64,000 bases of DNA, from assembly GCF_009863025.1 (NCBI RefSeq), contig NZ_WWIR01000680.1:1-64000 (forward strand), read 5' to 3'. Below are positions 28,521-35,355 of the stretch, one piece after another. The position numbers were made by a program, and so were the translations under genes. Under the pieces are notes generated by a model. That model was given only the letters and a program-made list of their open reading frames with translations, did not search any database and was not told the DNA's origin. Origin of the DNA: Streptomyces sp. SID4985. GTDB taxonomy: Bacteria > Actinomycetota > Actinomycetes > Streptomycetales > Streptomycetaceae. The stretch's first letter is position 1; each line of letters begins with the position of its first letter.

Positions 28521-29834
28521 CTAAGTCCGAAGATGGGCGCATTCCTTATCAATCGCGTCACAGGCGACATCCTGGTCGCACGGGCACGGACGGCCACCGT
28601 CGGGGGGCGCAGGGGTACGGCGCAGCTCGGCCGTCGCGGCACCCACGGCGACCACCGCGAGCACACACAGCAGACCGCCGCTGACGAGCGCCGTCGTGCC
28701 GGTGGTGGCGGACGCGACGAGTCCGCCGCGCACGTTGCCGAGGTCGGGCCCGGCCCGGCCCACGATCTGCTCGGCCGCCCCGACCCGTCCGAGCAGCGCG
28801 GGTGGGGTGTGCGCCTGGACGACGGTGCCCCGGGCCACGACGGACACCGTGTCGGCGGCGCCCGCGACGACGAGGAAGGCCAGGCCGAGCCAGGGTTCGG
28901 TCGACAGCCCGAAGAGGATCAGCGCGGCTCCCCACCCGGCGGAGCCGACGAGCATGATCAGTCCGGGGCGCGGGCTCCGGGTGAAGGTCCCGGAGAACAG
29001 GGAGGCGGCCACGCCACCGGCGGCGATGGCGGCCAGGAACAGCCCGAGCGTGCGCGGGTCTCCGTCGAACCGTTCGGCGTTGACCAGCGGGAACAGGCTG
29101 ATCGGCATGGACAGCACGGTCGCGGCCAGGTCGGTGAGCAGGGCCCCGCGCACGACGGGGGTGCGCACCAGGAAGGCCAGACCGTCCCCCACACCGCGCA
29201 GTCCGGGCCGGGCCGGCTCGGCGTCGCCGTCCGGGCTCATCGGGGGCAGGCCGAAGGCGCCGAAGAGCGCGGCGAGGAAGGTGACGGAGTCGATCAGATA
29301 GCACCCGCCGACCCCCACCCCGCCCACGAGCAGGCCGCCCAGCGCGGGTCCGGCCAGCATGGCGGCCTGGAAGGCGATGCGCCGCAGCGCGAGCCCGGCC
29401 GCGCGCTGCGGCTCGGGCAGCAACTGCGGGACGAACGTCCGCGAGGCCGGGGCCCCTCCGGCGACGAAGCAGGACTGGAGGGCGACCAGGCCCAGGACAC
29501 CGGCGGGCGGCAGCTGCCCGAAGAACCCCTGGACCGCGAGGAGCAGCGCGCAGACGGCCTGGCCCGCGGTCGTCCACAGATAGAAGCGGCGGCGGTCCAC
29601 CCGGTCGACCAGCGCGCCCGCGAAGAGCCCGAGCCCGATGAGCGGCACCGCCTGTGCCAGCCCGACGGCACCGGTCCACGCGGTGCTCCCGGTCATCTCC
29701 CAGATCTGGAACATCACGGCGACGACGGTCATCTGGCCGCCGAATCCGGACAGGGTCTGCCCCAGCCACAGCCGCCGGAAGACGGGTGAGGACCGCAGCG
29801 GGGTCACATCGAGCAACACGCGTTCCAGGCCCAT
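28521..29834 (-). CDS. MFS exporter, EntS/enterobactin-exporter-like
   Basis: This 437-aa inner-membrane protein has about 12 membrane segments and motif A variant GALVDRVDRRR after helix 2. Residues FRRLWLGQTLSGFGGQMTVV at the N-terminus and the SRTFVPQLLP region are typical of the MFS_3/EntS subgroup that exports siderophores or macrolides. ATG 29834 is chosen because the longer upstream frame is proline-rich and non-coding in character. It ends 12 bp from the decayed hydrolase. The substrate is unknown. Confidence 0.85.
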   Translation of the reverse strand: MGLERVLLDVTPLRSSPVFRRLWLGQTLSGFGGQMTVVAVMFQIWEMTGSTAWTGAVGLAQAVPLIGLGLFAGALVDRVDRRRFYLWTTAGQAVCALLLAVQGFFGQLPPAGVLGLVALQSCFVAGGAPASRTFVPQLLPEPQRAAGLALRRIAFQAAMLAGPALGGLLVGGVGVGGCYLIDSVTFLAALFGAFGLPPMSPDGDAEPARPGLRGVGDGLAFLVRTPVVRGALLTDLAATVLSMPISLFPLVNAERFDGDPRTLGLFLAAIAAGGVAASLFSGTFTRSPRPGLIMLVGSAGWGAALILFGLSTEPWLGLAFLVVAGAADTVSVVARGTVVQAHTPPALLGRVGAAEQIVGRAGPDLGNVRGGLVASATTGTTALVSGGLLCVLAVVAVGAATAELRRTPAPPDGGRPCPCDQDVACDAIDKECAHLRT

Positions 29835-29973
29835 GACCGGCCAGTCTGCCCCAACGGCAGCCGAGTTCGCGCCACCCGCCCCGAACCGGTCATCCCCTCG
29901 GCCGCCCGGCATGACCCCGCCCATGCCGGGGCAGTCTGAGCAAGCCCGCCGTATCCACCCGAGAGGTGCCGAA

Positions 29974-30450
29974 ATGCCCGCCGACGCAGCCGACTTCGTA
30001 CCAGCGACGGGCGGCCGGACCCTGAACGTCATCGGGGTCCACCTCTACGCGGAGGACCCGGAGGGACGCGTACTGCTCGGCCTGCGCCATCCCGACTCCG
30101 CCTACGAGGGCGGGAGTTGGCACTTCCTGGCCGGACACTGCGAGCAGGAGTCGGCCGTGGCGTGCCTGGTGCGGGAGGCGTACGAGGAGGGCGGGCTGGT
30201 GATCGACCCCGCCGATGTGGACTTCGCGCACGTGGTGCATCTGCTGGACGCCCCGGGGAGACGGCCGCGCATGCAACTGGTCTTCCGAGTGCGGGGGTTG
30301 AAGGGTGTCCCCGAGGTGCGGGAGCCGGACAAGTGCCTGGCCTGGCGCTGGTGGCCCCCGGACGGCCTCCCGGACCCGGTCGTCCCCTACGCCCGTGCGG
30401 CGATCGAGGGCATCCGCGCCGGACGCGCGTACACCGAGATGGGCTGGTGA
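29974..30450 (+). CDS. Nudix hydrolase 1 of a tandem trio
   Basis: This 158-aa protein has a complete Nudix box, GHCEQESAVACLVREAYEEG, following WHFLAGH. Nudix enzymes cleave nucleoside diphosphates linked to other groups, using Mg2+ held by the box glutamates. It ends ARAAIEGIRAGRAYTEMGW. GAGAGG lies before ATG 29974. It is the first gene of a five-gene unit (three Nudix, a D-Ala-D-Ala-type dipeptidase, a PIG-L deacetylase) on one strand. Substrate unknown. Confidence 0.88.
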   Translation: MPADAADFVPATGGRTLNVIGVHLYAEDPEGRVLLGLRHPDSAYEGGSWHFLAGHCEQESAVACLVREAYEEGGLVIDPADVDFAHVVHLLDAPGRRPRMQLVFRVRGLKGVPEVREPDKCLAWRWWPPDGLPDPVVPYARAAIEGIRAGRAYTEMGW

Positions 30451-30487
30451 ACCGGATGAACACCAAGTCACACGCACGGAGCCGCCG

Positions 30488-31057
30488 TTGAGCACCGGCC
30501 GCCGTCACACCGAGCCCGTCGACGTCCATCTGATCCTGCGCCGCGAGGGCACCCGCGGCACCGAGGTGCTGATGTCGCGGCGAGCCGGGCGGGTCTACGC
30601 GGCCGGGCTGTGGCACCTGCCGTCCGGGCATCTGGACGGCCCGCACGAGGACGTGGTGACGGCGCTGATCCGGGAGGCGCGGGAGGAGACCGGGGTGCTC
30701 ATCGCGGCCACTGACGTGCGGGCCGCCCTCACCGTGCACCATCGCGGCCCCGGCGGCGACGCGCGTATGGGGCTGTTCTTCGAGGTCCGCCGCTGGTCGG
30801 GCGAGCCGAGGGTCATGGAGCCCGAGGTGTGCGACGCGATGACCTGGGCCCCCGTCGACGCGCTGCCCGCCCCGGTCGTGGCGTACTGCCACGCGGGTCT
30901 CACCGCCTACCGCGCCGGTGCCCAACTGGCCCTGCACTTCCAGGAGCCGGGCGACACCGTCGCCCACGATCCGGCGGCGGAGCGGCTCCGCGTCGTGCCT
31001 TCGCGGTTCGACGGTGCCGTCAACGAATCGAATTCCCCTCTCACGGAGGCTCGTTGA
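30488..31057 (+). CDS. Nudix hydrolase 2 of a tandem trio
   Basis: This 189-aa protein starts at TTG 30488 (preceded by ACGGAG) with LSTGRRHTEPVDVHLILRRE. The Nudix box is GHLDGPHEDVVTALIREARE, continuing ETGV. It resembles Nudix 1 in fold and in length up to about residue 150 and has an extra C-terminal tail. Its TGA overlaps the TTG start of the third Nudix gene (TTGA), so the two are coupled. Duplication from a common ancestor with Nudix 1 is likely, with substantial divergence. Confidence 0.85.
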   Translation: MSTGRRHTEPVDVHLILRREGTRGTEVLMSRRAGRVYAAGLWHLPSGHLDGPHEDVVTALIREAREETGVLIAATDVRAALTVHHRGPGGDARMGLFFEVRRWSGEPRVMEPEVCDAMTWAPVDALPAPVVAYCHAGLTAYRAGAQLALHFQEPGDTVAHDPAAERLRVVPSRFDGAVNESNSPLTEAR

Positions 31058-31578
31058 AACAGATGCCCGCCCGCAAGAAAGTCTGGCTGCCGCCGGAGGA
31101 GTACGCCGAGACGGTCATGAAGGCCACCGGTTTCGCCTGCGTCTTCTTCACCGACGAGCACGACCGCCCGCTGCAACTGCACGGTGTCCACAACACCACG
31201 CACCCCTGGCAGTTCCCCGGCGGCACGATGGAGCCCGGGGAGCGGCCGTGGGAGACGGCGGTCCGGGAGTGCGAGGAGGAGACCGGTATCCGGGTGGCGG
31301 GGCCGCCCCGGCTGCTGGCGACGGTGTTCGGGCTGCCGGGCTCCCCGTGGCCGTACAGCACCATGGGGCTCGTCTTCGACGGCGGTCGGCTCGGCGCGGC
31401 GGAGATCCGGGGGCTCGTGCTGGACCCGGAGGAGCACGACGAGGCGCGGGTGTTGCCGCTCACCTCCTGGCAAACGATCATGCCGGCAAGGGATTTCGCG
31501 CGGCTGAGCGCGGTGATGGAGGCCCGTTCCACCGGTGTGGCGGCCTACTTCGACTCATGGGACTGGGAGACCGAGTGA
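31054..31578 (+). CDS. Nudix hydrolase 3 of a tandem trio
   Basis: This 174-aa protein has a canonical Nudix box in FPGGTMEPGERPWETAVREC, continuing EEETGI. ACGGAGG lies 5 nt before TTG 31054; an ATG at 31063 is the alternative but is too far from the site. It carries a conserved-looking WLPPEEY N-terminus and ends AYFDSWDWETE. Its stop overlaps the GTG of the dipeptidase gene (GTGA). It is the most distinct of the three and may act on a different nucleotide. Confidence 0.87.
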   Translation: MKQMPARKKVWLPPEEYAETVMKATGFACVFFTDEHDRPLQLHGVHNTTHPWQFPGGTMEPGERPWETAVRECEEETGIRVAGPPRLLATVFGLPGSPWPYSTMGLVFDGGRLGAAEIRGLVLDPEEHDEARVLPLTSWQTIMPARDFARLSAVMEARSTGVAAYFDSWDWETE

Positions 31579-32243
31579 GCATCGTGCTGATGTCCGACGA
31601 CCGGGTGGCGCGGATACCCGTCAGGGAGTGCGGGGAGCGGCTGGTCGACGTGCGCGTCGGCGACACGCTCCGCGTGGACGCCCGGCGGTGGGACGCGCCC
31701 GGCGCCTTCGCGCATCTGCGGGAGGGGGTCGTGGAGCGGCTGGTGCACGCGGGGTCGCTGCTGCCGGACGGGCTCGGGCTGCTGCTCGTGGAGGGGTACC
31801 GGCCACCGGCCCTGCAGCGGCGTTACTTCGCGGACTACGCGGGCGAACTCGCCCGGGACAACCCCGACTGGCCGGCGGACCGCCTCCGCGATGCCGCCAG
31901 CCGCTATGTCTCGCCGCCGGAGATCGCCCCGCACAGCGCGGGCGCGGCCGTCGACCTCACCCTGGTCGACAGCGACGGCGTCGAACTCGACATGGGCACC
32001 CGCATGAACGCCACCCCGGAGGAGAGCGGGGGCGCCTGCTACACCGACGCCGCCAACATCGGCGACCGGGCCCGCGAGCACCGCACCCTCCTCTCGACCG
32101 CCCTGACCTCGGCGGGCCTGGTCAACTACGGCACCGAGTGGTGGCATTGGAGCTGGGGCGACCGCTACTGGGCCTTCCGGACGGACCAGCCCGCCGCGCT
32201 GTACGGCCCGATAGAACACCAGCAACTCGCCCCGGAGCACTGA
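31575..32243 (+). CDS. M15D D-Ala-D-Ala dipeptidase (VanX-like)
   Basis: This 222-aa zinc peptidase of family M15D has the substrate-binding Arg in EGYRPP, zinc ligands His and Asp in PHSAGAAVDLTL and the EWWHW motif with Glu and His near the C-terminus. VanX-type enzymes split D-Ala-D-Ala or related dipeptides in the cytoplasm; there is no signal peptide here. No vanH/vanA/vanS genes are nearby, so glycopeptide resistance is not supported. It is coupled to Nudix 3 by GTGA and lies 4 nt before the deacetylase. Confidence 0.9.
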   Translation: MSIVLMSDDRVARIPVRECGERLVDVRVGDTLRVDARRWDAPGAFAHLREGVVERLVHAGSLLPDGLGLLLVEGYRPPALQRRYFADYAGELARDNPDWPADRLRDAASRYVSPPEIAPHSAGAAVDLTLVDSDGVELDMGTRMNATPEESGGACYTDAANIGDRAREHRTLLSTALTSAGLVNYGTEWWHWSWGDRYWAFRTDQPAALYGPIEHQQLAPEH

Positions 32244-32247
32244 GCCC

Positions 32248-33012
32248 ATGACACCGCCCAGCCTCCTCGCCGTATTCGCCCACCCCGACGACGAGTCCCT
32301 GGTCTCCGGCGGTGTCATCGCCCGGCACGCGGCGGCGGGCGCCCGGACGACGGTCGTGACCGCCACCTGGGCCCCCGGCACCTACCGCACCCGTGAACTC
32401 GCGGACGCCGTACGGGCCTTGGGCGCCGAGCCGCCCCAACTGCTCGGCTACGCCGACGACCGCGTCCCCGACTCGGCGCCGGGACAGCCGCGTTGGTGCG
32501 ACGTGCCGCTGGACGAGGCGGTCGCCCATGTGGTGGCCGCCATCCGCGCGGTCCGCCCGGACATCGTGCTCACGCACGACGCGTACGGCGGCCTCACCGG
32601 CCATCCGGACCACCGCCGCACCCACCAGGTCACCCTGCTCGCGGCCGCCGCCTCCGGGCTCGGGGACCTCCACCCCGAGGCGGGCGAGCCGTGGCAGCCG
32701 GGCGCCGTGTACCTGGCCACCCATCCGGACACGGCGGTGGCCGACCTCGGCCCCCTGATGACCCGGGCCCGCAAGTCCGTCCTGGCGGTGCCGCACCGCC
32801 AGGTGAGCGCGGTGGTGGACGTACGCCCGTGGCTGGACCGGAAGTGGGCGGCGATCCTGTCCCACCGCAGCCAGGTGGAACGCGAACGCCCCCTCCCCGG
32901 CATCCTCGCCCGCCTCCCCGCCGAGGCACGGCACCGCATCATCGGCACGGAGTACTACATGCGGGTGGGTCTGACCTCGGCCGCACCGCCCCTGACCCAG
33001 CTGACGGTCTGA
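32248..33012 (+). CDS. PIG-L-family zinc deacetylase
   Basis: This 254-aa LmbE/PIG-L enzyme has the metal motif AHPDDE near the start and the second ligand region in HDAYGGLTGHPDH. The family removes acetyl groups from N-acetylglucosaminyl compounds (MshB, Mca-type amidase, antibiotic-sugar deacetylases). It is the last gene of the Nudix-dipeptidase group. Together the five suggest processing of a nucleotide-linked amino sugar or peptide, but the pathway is not known. Confidence 0.9.
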   Translation: MTPPSLLAVFAHPDDESLVSGGVIARHAAAGARTTVVTATWAPGTYRTRELADAVRALGAEPPQLLGYADDRVPDSAPGQPRWCDVPLDEAVAHVVAAIRAVRPDIVLTHDAYGGLTGHPDHRRTHQVTLLAAAASGLGDLHPEAGEPWQPGAVYLATHPDTAVADLGPLMTRARKSVLAVPHRQVSAVVDVRPWLDRKWAAILSHRSQVERERPLPGILARLPAEARHRIIGTEYYMRVGLTSAAPPLTQLTV

Positions 33013-33052
33013 ACCGCCGGACGCTCTGAACCCCCGTGCCCCGCAAGGCGTT

Positions 33053-33772
33053 TCACCCGAGCGTGACCAGCCGCGCCCCGCCGTCCGCCTCCAGCACCGT
33101 CCCCGTGAGGTTGCCGTTCGTCGCCGCGAGGGCCACCACCTCGGCCACCTCCTCGGCCGTGGCGACGTGCCGTACCGGCAGGGCGGCGGCCGCCTGGGCG
33201 AAGTAGCCCTGCCGTGCCTCCTCCGGGAGCCCGTCCCACCAGGGGGTGTCCACCAGCCCCGGAGAGACGGCGTTCACTCGGATCGGGGCGAGTTCCACGG
33301 CGAGGGGCCGGACGAGCGCCTCGACCGCGCCGTTGACGGCGGCGAGTCCGGCGGTGCCCGGCATTCCGGTGCGGGCGCTGACGGCGCCGAGCAGGGTGAC
33401 CGAGCCGTTCGGGGTCAGGTGGGGCAGGACCGCCTGGAGCGTGGCGAGGTGCGCCCAGAGCTTGGCGTCGAACGCCCGGCGCAGGACGGTGAGGTTCAAC
33501 TCGGCCAGCGGGCCCGCGCCTTCGCCGCCACTGGCCGCGAGGACCAGCCAGTCGATCTTGCCGATGCCCTCGGCGACGGCACGGATCGCGTCGCCGTCGA
33601 CGGCGTCGGCCTGGTGGCCGACGAGGGCGGGGTCGGTGGCGGCGACGGCGTCGAGCCGTTCCTTGCCGCGGCCGACGATGTGCACGGCCACACCGCGCGC
33701 CGCGAGCAGGCGCGCCGTGGCGAGCCCGATCCCGGACGTGCCGCCGACCACCAGAGCTGTGTGTGGGGACAT
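33053..33772 (-). CDS. SDR-family protein lacking the catalytic Tyr and Lys
   Basis: This 239-aa Rossmann-fold protein has a cofactor motif variant VVGGTSGIG and the usual segments up to VSARTGMPGTAGLAAVNGAV. At the position of the Tyr-x-x-x-Lys pair it has Ala and Asn (GLAAVNGAV), so classical SDR chemistry is unlikely unless other residues substitute. The end GLVDTPWW and LEADGGARLV are normal. It is divergent from a TetR gene (77 bp between starts), which probably controls it. Confidence 0.85.
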   Translation of the reverse strand: MSPHTALVVGGTSGIGLATARLLAARGVAVHIVGRGKERLDAVAATDPALVGHQADAVDGDAIRAVAEGIGKIDWLVLAASGGEGAGPLAELNLTVLRRAFDAKLWAHLATLQAVLPHLTPNGSVTLLGAVSARTGMPGTAGLAAVNGAVEALVRPLAVELAPIRVNAVSPGLVDTPWWDGLPEEARQGYFAQAAAALPVRHVATAEEVAEVVALAATNGNLTGTVLEADGGARLVTLG

Positions 33773-33849: not shown

Positions 33850-34437
33850 ATGGTCATGGACAGGCAACCCCCACCCCGACGAGGCCGCAGACGCAGCGAG
33901 GAGAGCCGGACCGCGATCCTGGCCGCGGCCTACGAACTCGTCGCCGAGGCCGGGTACGCCGACCTCACGATCGAGGGCATCGCAAGTCGCGCCGGCTGCG
34001 GCAAGCAGACGATCTACCGCTGGTGGCCGTCGAAGGCGCACGTTCTGCTGGAGGCGCTCGCGGCGAAGGCAGGCCTGTTCGTGTCCAACGCGGACCACGG
34101 CTCCTACGCGGCGGACCTGCGAGAGTTCCTCACGGACACCTTCACGCTCAGCCGCCGGCGCCCGGTCGCCGACATCCTGCGCGTGCTGATGGCACAGGCC
34201 CAGATCGACCCGGAGTTCGGCCAGGTCTTCCGCACCGACCTGCTCCAGCGCAGACGGGAGGCGCTCCAGGTCGTCCTGGACCGTGCCCGCACCCGGGGTG
34301 ATCTGCCGTCCTCCCCCACGCCGGAGACGGTCCTCGACCTGGTCTTCGGCGCCCTGTGGTACCGCCTGCTGGCCACCGGCCGCCCGGTGGACGACGCCCT
34401 CGCGGACGACCTGGTGGCCACACTCACCCGACCCTGA
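33850..34437 (+). CDS. TetR/AcrR-family regulator
   Basis: This 195-aa protein has a TetR HTH (AAYELVAEAGYADLTIEGIA, then GCGKQTIYRWWPSKAHVLLE) and a TetR_C_11-like ligand domain (DILRVLMAQAQIDPEFGQVF). It is divergent from the atypical SDR gene and likely represses it and itself. The short intergenic region has two TCGA-centred half-sites but no clear palindrome. It ends 9 bp from the convergent galU stop, so transcription may collide there. Confidence 0.92.
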   Translation: MVMDRQPPPRRGRRRSEESRTAILAAAYELVAEAGYADLTIEGIASRAGCGKQTIYRWWPSKAHVLLEALAAKAGLFVSNADHGSYAADLREFLTDTFTLSRRRPVADILRVLMAQAQIDPEFGQVFRTDLLQRRREALQVVLDRARTRGDLPSSPTPETVLDLVFGALWYRLLATGRPVDDALADDLVATLTRP

Positions 34438-34446
34438 GACCGGCGG

Positions 34447-35355
34447 TCAGCCGTCGATCCTGCGCACCAACTCCCGCAGCACCGGCCCGTACTCCGGGTG
34501 GGCCAGGGCGTGGGCCATCTGGGCCACCAGGTAGTCGGCGGGGTTTCCGGTGTCGTACCACTCGCCCCGGATGACCTGGCCGTAGACCGCGTGGTGGGCG
34601 GCGTAGGCGTTGAGGGCGTCGGTGAGGTAGACCTCGCCGGCCGGGCCGCCCCGCCGTTCGGCCTCGTACCAGAGGCGCGTCTGTTCGCGGAGCTCGTCGA
34701 CGATGCCGGGGGTGACGACATAGCCGCCGATGGCCGCGTACGCGGAGGGCGCCGCCTCCGGCTCCGGTTTCTCCACCAGGCCGGTGATGCGCAGCATGCC
34801 GTCGCCGAGGTCCTCCTTGACGACCGGGACGCCGTAACGGCGGGAGTCGGCCGGGTCCATGGGGAGGAGGGCGAGGACGGGACAGCCGGTCTGTTCGTAG
34901 GCGCGGATGAGCTGCTGGGCGCGGGGTACCTCGGCCACGAACACGTCGTCGGGCCACAGGACCAGGACGGGTTCGTCGCCGAAGCTGCGGGCGGCGTTGA
35001 GGACGGGGGTGCCGTTGCCGTACGGGCCGTGCTGGTCGAGGTAGGTGATGTGGCCCCGGCGGGCCAGCTCGGCGACCTCCTCCACGGCGTCGGCGTAGGC
35101 GACCTTGCCGTCCTCCCTGAGCTGCCGTACGAGAGCCGGGTTGGGGCGGAAGTGATCCTGGATCAGGGACTTGCCGCCGGAGACGACGATGGTGATGTCG
35201 GTGATGCCGGAGTCCACCAGCTCGCGCACGGTGTGCTCCACGACGGGTTTGTCACCGACCGGCAGCATCTCCTTGGGCGTGGCCTTGGTCAGCGGCAGCA
35301 GCCGCGATCCGAGCCCGGCGGCGGGGATCACGGCCCGGCGGATGGTGGGGGGCAT
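34447..35355 (-). CDS. galU: UTP--glucose-1-phosphate uridylyltransferase
   Basis: This 302-aa GalU has the nucleotidyltransferase signature AVIPAAGLGSRLLPLTKATP followed by KEMLPVGDKP. Catalytic Asp and sugar-binding regions are visible (LVLWPDDVF, GLVEKP, EYGxVY-like segments). It makes UDP-glucose from UTP and glucose-1-phosphate for trehalose, glycogen-related and cell-wall glycan synthesis. It is a single gene with its own promoter in the 208-bp gap upstream. Confidence 0.96.
   Translation of the reverse strand: MPPTIRRAVIPAAGLGSRLLPLTKATPKEMLPVGDKPVVEHTVRELVDSGITDITIVVSGGKSLIQDHFRPNPALVRQLREDGKVAYADAVEEVAELARRGHITYLDQHGPYGNGTPVLNAARSFGDEPVLVLWPDDVFVAEVPRAQQLIRAYEQTGCPVLALLPMDPADSRRYGVPVVKEDLGDGMLRITGLVEKPEPEAAPSAYAAIGGYVVTPGIVDELREQTRLWYEAERRGGPAGEVYLTDALNAYAAHHAVYGQVIRGEWYDTGNPADYLVAQMAHALAHPEYGPVLRELVRRIDG

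Follow-up and report, generated by a model that had tools for sequence, protein, structure and literature searches.

Five co-oriented open reading frames (ORFs) occupy positions 29974-33012, + strand, of a 64,000-nucleotide stretch of Streptomyces sp. SID4985 DNA (hereafter, the window), and they encode three Nudix proteins, a VanX-fold dipeptidase of the M15 family, and a PIG-L deacetylase. The source genome is Streptomyces-like, and the contig that carries the genes is G000:C663. The first gene, N1 (29974-30450, +), encodes the 158-amino-acid (aa) protein P0001, which matches the Nudix family PF00293 with 55.9 bits. N2 (30488-31057, +; P0002, 189 aa; PF00293, 57.1 bits) and N3 (31054-31578, +; P0003, 174 aa; PF00293, 60.6 bits) follow, both starting with TTG; that of N2 is preceded by GGAG, as seen by eye. 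Next come the genes for an M15 zinc D,D-dipeptidase-like protein (31575-32243, +; P0004, 222 aa; GTG start; PF01427, 59.9 bits) and a PIG-L/MshB-like deacetylase (32248-33012, +; P0005, 254 aa; PF02585, 87.7 bits). All five proteins score above the Pfam gathering cut-offs (NUDIX, 21.1; Peptidase_M15, 27; PIG-L, 28.2 bits), so the family names that an initial annotation, made from the sequence without database searches, had given them hold. The ORF coordinates likewise bear out the compact five-gene run it described: N2 and N3 overlap by TTGA (31054-31057), N3 and the M15 gene by GTGA (31575-31578), and a gap of 4 bases separates the M15 gene from PIG-L. It was silent on the spacing of N1 and N2, which are 37 bases apart. 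An ORF of 11 codons plus a stop (ATG to TGA, 30456-30491), seen by eye, lies between these two and may be due to chance; its stop overlaps the TTG start of N2 as TTGA, as at the N2/N3 junction. The five genes look like one transcription unit, cotranscription being suggested by the overlaps. Scans of 29700-33300 for sigma-70 promoters and terminators returned 0 and 0, a result of little information in a GC-rich actinomycete, and no signal peptide was seen by eye in any of the five proteins.

Do these genes belong together? The initial annotation proposed looking at genome-neighborhood conservation and would have given the association up if the genes did not travel together in other genomes; because they do travel together, though loosely, as judged by co-location, gene order, and a tree of the M15 protein, it can be kept. 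Co-location was counted in 150 genomes of the genus, the window's own genome being excluded, among ortholog-level copies picked by eye from the matches listed, which are part of the whole; distant copies and most fragments, including two of PIG-L, were dropped. Another of the five genes lies within 10 kb of 19 of 47 copies of N1, 15 of 23 of N2, 8 of 17 of N3, 9 of 66 of M15, and 11 of 48 of PIG-L, while the chance expectation for any one gene pair is 0.01-0.06 in all, assuming an 8.5-Mb genome and uniform gene placement. All five are found within 10 kb in one genome of the 150 (G131) besides the window. Gene order is nearly fixed: 42 distinct loci hold two or more of the five classes, and of their 119 gene pairs, 10 of which the window itself supplies, 117 agree with the order in the window (after removal of 9 duplicates, the set still includes loci from closely related strains). 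The two discordant pairs come from L206, where PIG-L precedes M15, and L127, where N2 precedes N1. The term Nudix island is used here for at least two of N1, N2, N3, M15, and PIG-L lying close together on one strand in the order of the window, and the window is such an island. In an M15 tree of 78 sequences, the bootstrap of which is not fully settled, the island label requires 2 changes, compared with approximately 20 in shuffles, and 0 of 500 shuffles were as low. The window M15 sits in a starred clade of 16 sequences, all island-derived. The tree indicates that island M15 proteins have largely stayed with the islands. All three families are common in Streptomyces, and chance neighbors could in principle arise from such stock, but co-location, the nearly fixed order, and the tree contradict this, and the window holds the only tandem Nudix set found in its genome. 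There, 34 Nudix matches are spread over 731 contigs and only this contig has more than one, namely, the N1-N3 tandem plus a further gene about 17 kb off (the contigs are short, and another tandem split by a contig end could be overlooked). A fortuitous gathering is very improbable.

The three Nudix proteins of the window carry the REXXEE metal-binding core, as judged by eye, and so do 295 of the 303 distinct island Nudix domains scoring at least 60 bits. The strict Nudix box pattern is found in nearly all distinct island domains of the N1 (69/72), N2 (27/29), and N3 (37/38) classes and is rarer in the others: 21 of 39 first domains and 13 of 58 second domains of triple-Nudix proteins, and 0 of 27 second domains of double-Nudix proteins. 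Since the REXXEE core is so widely kept, the box-poor classes are not called dead. In the triple-Nudix proteins that longer islands encode, the domain matched by N1 is the third. The N2 domain is usually fused there to an APH-type kinase (e.g., Nudix.APH, L100:11008-12387), and in some relatives a GNAT domain precedes N3 or is joined to it (GNAT.Nudix3, L211:1-921). What might these proteins act on? P0001-P0003 give weak matches to MutT-like models, and no NCBIfam equivalog for a substrate-specific Nudix subfamily scores over its cut-off for any of them. PADLOC and PHROGs scans returned generic Nudix matches plus one weak match for PIG-L; for the Nudix component of the anti-phage system PDC-S07, PADLOC gave weak, generic matches of 19.6-31.7 bits. 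A single-sequence structure prediction of N3 reached a mean predicted local distance difference test (pLDDT) score of 38.6 and was not used for a fold search. Such unspecific matches would suit a set for damage control, one that would clear the cell of aberrant nucleotides, D-dipeptides, and acylated metabolites independently of any peptide product; this possibility is taken up again below.

The M15 protein gives a clearer structural picture. Its predicted structure, built from 28 sequences (mean pLDDT, 87), best matches VanX (1r44; Z score, 16.4; root mean square deviation, 3.3 over 172 residues; 26% identity), with VanY second (Z score, 10.6). All 28 aligned sequences agree at the positions of the zinc ligands, catalytic Glu, and Arg of VanX, and simple text patterns for the catalytic positions match 63-74 of 78 M15 sequences, some being partial or divergent. 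Against the VanX equivalog NF033115, however, the protein scores 40.2 bits, far below the cut-off of 320. One substitution stands out. The position of VanX Asp142, a residue we take to bind the amino end of the substrate, is Asn in all 23 island M15 proteins and in 43 of 50 readable stand-alone ones; because of this Asn, substrates other than free D-Ala-D-Ala are possible. Such stand-alone M15 genes are widespread in Streptomyces, mostly without Nudix neighbors (L145-L204): of the 58 M15 loci in this series, obtained from a genus search, 53 lack a Nudix gene and the other 5 have at least three on their strand. The PIG-L protein contains the motifs AHPDDE and HPDH, and its nearest PDB relatives by sequence are the MshB structures 1q7t, 4ewl, and 1q74. 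It nevertheless falls short of the MshB equivalog TIGR03445 (117.5 versus 224.35 bits) and of all four NCBIfam cut-offs for MshB, Mca, and BshB deacetylases (117.5/224, 96.7/277, 64.7/182.5, and 44.6/195 bits).

From these same activities, the initial annotation had derived a nucleotide-linked amino sugar or cell-wall-type precursor, which would be made or dismantled by a UDP-sugar pyrophosphatase, a D-Ala-D-Ala dipeptidase, and a GlcNAc deacetylase. The predicted VanX fold with its catalytic residues and the MshB-like character of PIG-L favor this idea, as does a GalU gene (34447-35355, -) that lies 1.4 kb downstream of the five genes on the other strand. So do two island loci, near copies of each other (L117:294-5355 and L104:431-4809), in which genes for an APH kinase, an NAD-epimerase of the epimerase/GDP-mannose-dehydratase type, an AdoHcyase-like protein, a Nudix protein, and a cytidylyltransferase precede the ABC gene on its strand (by eye in L104); a histidine phosphatase gene is also present in L117, the one of the two scanned for it. 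The epimerase and cytidylyltransferase would suit a possible sugar-nucleotide pathway, and because of them this explanation is given slightly more weight. On the other side stand the missed VanX, MshB, and Mca cut-offs, the Asn in every island M15, and the lack of GalU at this site in L086 and L088, two of the four relatives compared. Furthermore, no glycosyltransferase was found among ten scanned representatives of the recurrent island genes, although no dedicated glycosyltransferase scan of the islands was made, and the long islands point instead to peptide modification and export. We consider the amino sugar or cell-wall role unlikely.

What company do the five genes keep in these long islands? 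There, the run of genes in which they lie also encodes kinases, HIT and GNAT proteins, an MFS pump, an ABC exporter, and FxLD/graspetide-type aspartyl O-methyltransferases, and it sometimes follows directly on an FxLD lanthipeptide cluster. The picture, drawn from loci around N1, N3, M15, island, and peptide matches, begins with the ABC exporter, the MFS pump and an APH kinase (before or after the triple Nudix), the triple Nudix, a PCMT-type methyltransferase, and the methyltransferase MT8. It goes on with an N2.APH fusion, GNAT, N3, M15, a Nudix.FxLD-methyltransferase fusion, a 265-aa protein, PIG-L, and a double Nudix. The position of HIT varies between two places, G025 has M15 at the end, and each case misses some members; examples are G025 (L205/L206), G015 (L222), G131 (L077/L217), S. 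flavotricini (L207/L208), and S. bambusae (L215/L216). The Pfam families of the long islands are ABC_tran, NUDIX, PCMT, APH, M15 with an AAA_33 kinase, MFS_3, HIT, and GNAT.NUDIX. Fusions include a P-loop kinase with M15 (L132:8516-9709), Nudix with an FxLD methyltransferase (L139:2009-4174), and a methyltransferase with Nudix (L126:9623-10822). With the FxLD methyltransferase model TIGR04364 (cut-off, 320), the Nudix fusion scores 345 bits and the lanthipeptide-side enzyme 418. Among 61 named N1 loci, the genes found within 6 kb on the same strand are ABC (32 loci), M15 (17), PCMT (12), kinase (12), and FxLD-type methyltransferase (11). A strong ABC label (>300 bits) occurs anywhere in 27 of these loci, and at least two Nudix domains occur in 57; N1-type islands without any exporter also exist. 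Less regular members are a 5'-3' exonuclease, GFA, HAD, and an enolase-like protein. Two further families recur in the islands. The 265-aa protein, which has no Pfam match, stands just before PIG-L (L206:8777-9574 and L222:8158-8955), and the F13 family, of 364-385 aa, lies between the FxLD methyltransferase and the ABC/Nudix genes (L207:13595-14695 and L205:14440-15597), a relative of it (L129:984-2096) having no Pfam or NCBIfam match.

The tie to LANTHIPEPTIDES was assessed in 31 genomes selected because they carry islands, among them that of the window. An FxLD methyltransferase scores over the cut-off in 27 of them and a lantibiotic dehydratase is present in 25. In seven (G025, G151, G165, G116, G164, G159, and G152), the two genes immediately precede the ABC/Nudix genes, all on one strand; in the other island genomes, they are located elsewhere, missing, or split by contig ends. 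FxLD-like precursors were called in five of the seven (L205:7663-7836, L207:6781-6954, L209:6709-6894, L210:7149-7334, and L214:3788-3958), three of which end in a TDD-[NG]-CG-[ST]-TCGACTT core, and Pfam confirms the dehydratase in L207 and L209 and, in L207, LanC as well. Upstream of island-adjoining FxLD clusters, genes for proteins that by eye resemble conservon parts (a roadblock-type protein and a GTPase) and further regulator-like genes were noted in L209:736-4822 and, similarly, in L210, L212, and L213. In G023, the island is preceded on its own strand, at a distance of approximately 10-20 kb, by a dehydratase gene and an ATP-grasp gene, an arrangement not counted as contiguous. The ATP-grasp peptide maturase TIGR04187 is over its cut-off in 22 of the 31 genomes and, among the matches listed, is near the island only in G023.

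These associations bear on the damage control explanation, according to which the long islands would be accumulations of clean-up genes. PCMT-kind methyltransferases, kinases, HIT, HAD, and GFA could indeed be repair or clean-up enzymes, and the exporter-free N1-type islands, like the unspecific Nudix matches described above, agree with it. Aspartyl methyltransferases with an FxLD C-terminal domain, however, belong to peptide systems, according to the available part of the pamtide study (PMC10787088), and, as mentioned, they are over the cut-off in most of the island genomes; the recurrent tie to lanthipeptide genes likewise argues against general housekeeping, which we consider unlikely.

A second link to peptides comes from small ORFs upstream of island ABC genes. 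They yield a family of peptides of 40-51 aa that start near MxPxP..P.[FI]E and end near [SA]RPDTRWxA (L225-L246, L248, L142, L111, L090, L100, L122, L217, and others). In the fetched loci, the family model gives 18 matches with E <1e-3, of which 4 are second copies and ten distinct ones are seeds of the model itself. Matches at E 0.01 occur in 37 of the 150 genus genomes, some at chance level. A local model bore the peptide out in 23 of 30 returned loci (at least 4 of the 23 being the model's own sequences), and the 7 loci without it were left out of what follows. Each of the 23 has, on the strand of the peptide, a match that begins 9-242 bases downstream of it: ABC in 18, APH in 3, and a methyltransferase/MFS type in 2, with one label (L226) resting on a looser model that mixes MFS and methyltransferase sequences. 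Around 20 of the peptide matches, wider regions have a Nudix gene on the peptide strand in 11 and none in 9, one of the latter (L274) surrounding a match that the local model did not bear out. Because of these nine Nudix-free regions, the peptide and exporter must also be said to occur without Nudix. The peptide may be a precursor or a regulatory leader.

If it is a precursor, might the direct substrate of the Nudix, M15, and PIG-L proteins be a ribosomal peptide or its activated (phosphorylated, nucleotidylated, or acylated) intermediate, encoded elsewhere in the strain in the case of the window's set? The fusion of Nudix domains to FxLD-type aspartyl methyltransferases and APH kinases, the HIT and GNAT proteins of the long islands, and the conserved small peptide that precedes the exporter would all fit such tailoring. 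The window, however, has no peptide, ABC exporter, or methyltransferase. Its best small-peptide ORF is at chance level (E 0.38; pamtide precursors themselves were not searched for), and its genome has no match to the small-peptide family at E 0.01. A direct tailoring role for the window's enzymes is therefore rather unlikely.

How stable is such a set at one place in the genome? The genes next to the window's five are, on the left, an MFS pump gene (28521-29819, -), which is divergent from them, and, on the right, SDR (33053-33772, -), TetR (33850-34437, +), and the GalU gene already mentioned. The scanned neighbors of the M15 gene comprise Nudix, PIG-L, SDR, TetR, GalU, MFS, and a carbon-nitrogen hydrolase; vanH and vanA are not among them, the rest of the window and the genome not having been searched for van genes. 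The MFS protein is 26-30% alike to island MFS proteins and, because this likeness is so low, is not counted as part of the island. No label for LanB, LanC, or an FxLD-type or PCMT-type methyltransferase was found in the window (the LanB and LanC models consisting of one sequence each), and all Lant_dehydr_N matches of the genome are on contig C453, away from the five genes. At the far left of the window, ARAGORN calls a tRNA-Asp (1176-1249, -) with the unlikely anticodon ATC, possibly a false call.

Four named relatives share the site beside an M1 peptidase gene, three of them with kdpABC at the left as in the window. The nearest named neighbors in searches, Streptomyces sp. DSM 110735 (L084) and Streptomyces sp. 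LaPpAH-108 (L085), are about 88-94% alike in DNA along shared stretches. In L084, M15 alone of the five is missing, so that N3 is directly followed by PIG-L, and SDR and TetR are missing too; L085 is without N2 and kdp. S. griseoluteus (L086) and S. bauhiniae (L088) are without PIG-L, SDR, TetR, and GalU, and in both, N1 lies inside a multi-Nudix protein and N3 is extended at its N terminus. An M1 peptidase ortholog with 74-80% identity is also present in G020, G016, and G003, which are more distant and have no island at the site, while G016 and G020 carry N1 - N2.APH - N3 - PIG-L elsewhere (L069 and L066). This same-site comparison tells us that the island sits at differing genomic places and differs by single genes. 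Membership is loose, with single genes coming and going even at one site. A mobile element was considered as the carrier and is not shown by these data; the islands lie at differing sites, and integrases were not searched for. Against the same-site relatives, the ratios of nonsynonymous to synonymous substitution (dN/dS) of the five genes are 0.19-0.47, which fits purifying selection, and they exceed those of the adjoining GalU, KdpA, and SDR (0.10-0.16).

The anatomy of the gene set, the selection on it, its order, and its membership in a family of islands with peptide-type methyltransferases and exporters can thus be stated as observed. What is it for? Our favored reading, which we hold tentatively and at somewhat less than an even chance, is that the window contains the short, enzyme-only form of a modular Streptomyces island of nearly fixed order and freely missing members. 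The hydrolases would be the processing or self-protection arm of a peptide-product island, and this genome would keep that arm alone, as an orphan detoxification or immunity set. Going by their families, the expected targets would be the bond of a nucleoside-diphosphate-X or another diphosphate for N1-N3, a short peptide for the M15 protein, and an N-acyl bond for the PIG-L protein. Because the window keeps the hydrolases without the peptide parts, processing or self-protection is the simplest function able to stand alone. A more far-reaching version, possible but doubtful, is that the islands encode an undescribed Streptomyces peptide natural-product system built around the 40-51-aa peptide, whose ORF stands immediately ahead of the gene for a dedicated ABC exporter; aspartyl methyltransferases, kinases, and sets of as many as seven Nudix domains would modify this peptide. 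The five genes of the window would then be the system's portable processing or immunity arm, retained after loss of the peptide genes.

Several points weigh against the favored reading. The self-protection role is drawn only from the absence of biosynthetic parts, and the substrates of all five proteins are assigned by family membership. No ABC exporter, methyltransferase, lanthipeptide gene, or small peptide stands beside the window's five genes, the divergent MFS pump being the only transporter there, and the genome has no FxLD methyltransferase over the cut-off. Among 79 M15 copies, a sample that includes loci chosen for holding N1, 54 lack a Nudix gene within 6 kb, 1 has a single one, and 24 have at least two; since most homologs stand alone, M15 has a separate role as well. 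Around N1, PIG-L is rare, being present within 6 kb on the same strand in 2 of the 61 named N1 loci and anywhere in the locus in 3. Finally, the mix of neighbors, with its exonuclease, GFA, HAD, epimerase, and cytidylyltransferase, is broad enough for damage control or sugar chemistry.

Nudix hydrolases are commonly regarded as lone house-cleaners. Here, they occur in tandem, fused to kinases and aspartyl methyltransferases, beside exporters, and sometimes next to lanthipeptide genes, making the islands a testable link between Nudix chemistry and ribosomal peptides. The islands also supply a set of enzymes, among them an Asn variant of the VanX fold and an orphan PIG-L, whose substrates could be found. 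Has such a system been described? The initial annotation did not recognize the combination as a described one, and literature searches agree, having found no paper that describes the association of Nudix, M15, and PIG-L in an island. They found no text joining Nudix with FxLD, and texts on Nudix with lanthipeptides look unrelated by their titles and the starts of their abstracts. By the same parts of the texts among the matches listed, searches on PIG-L, dipeptidase, isoaspartate, gene clusters, and tandem Nudix gave no such island. Nudix is not mentioned in the main text of the pamtide paper (PMC10787088), under a term search of the graspetide survey (PMC8939145), or in the available parts of three FxLD papers (PMC9303977, PMC12402327, and PMC12710340). 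A Streptomyces synteny study has Nudix genes in a list only, as far as its available text goes (PMC13118837), and the accessible portion of an actinobacterial van gene survey describes van and pdx operons with no mention of Nudix (PMC8698665).

How, then, do the islands compare with known systems? The closest are the FxLD-type (class I) lanthipeptide clusters with a PAMT methyltransferase (TIGR04364), which are covered in a review of aspartimide chemistry whose available part neither mentions Nudix nor describes M15 or PIG-L there (PMC13001092). Some long islands adjoin the precursor, LanB, LanC, and methyltransferase of such clusters, and long islands hold further FxLD-type methyltransferases, some fused to Nudix; the window, in contrast, holds no defining part. 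Pamtides and imiditides resemble the islands in having short Asp-containing peptides near PAMT-like methyltransferases, and the portion of that study at hand leaves 3653 PAMTs (aspartyl methyltransferases) unassigned (PMC10787088). The island peptide, however, mostly precedes an ABC exporter, with the methyltransferase further down a Nudix-rich operon, and the window has neither. With the D-Ala-D-Ala dipeptidase VanX (M15D), the window M15 shares the fold and the zinc-ligand, Glu, and Arg positions, while it differs in its score, in its Asn at the Asp142 position, and in being without adjoining vanH and vanA. Among the PIG-L family deacetylases MshB, Mca, and BshB, the window protein is nearest to MshB by sequence and has the metal motif, though it stays under every cut-off. 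Streptomyces product clusters with single Nudix genes, such as that for tubercidin, are similar in placing Nudix in a biosynthetic cluster, judging from the available part of the report (PMC6112128); the islands differ in combining tandem and multidomain Nudix sets with M15, PIG-L, and aspartyl methyltransferases.

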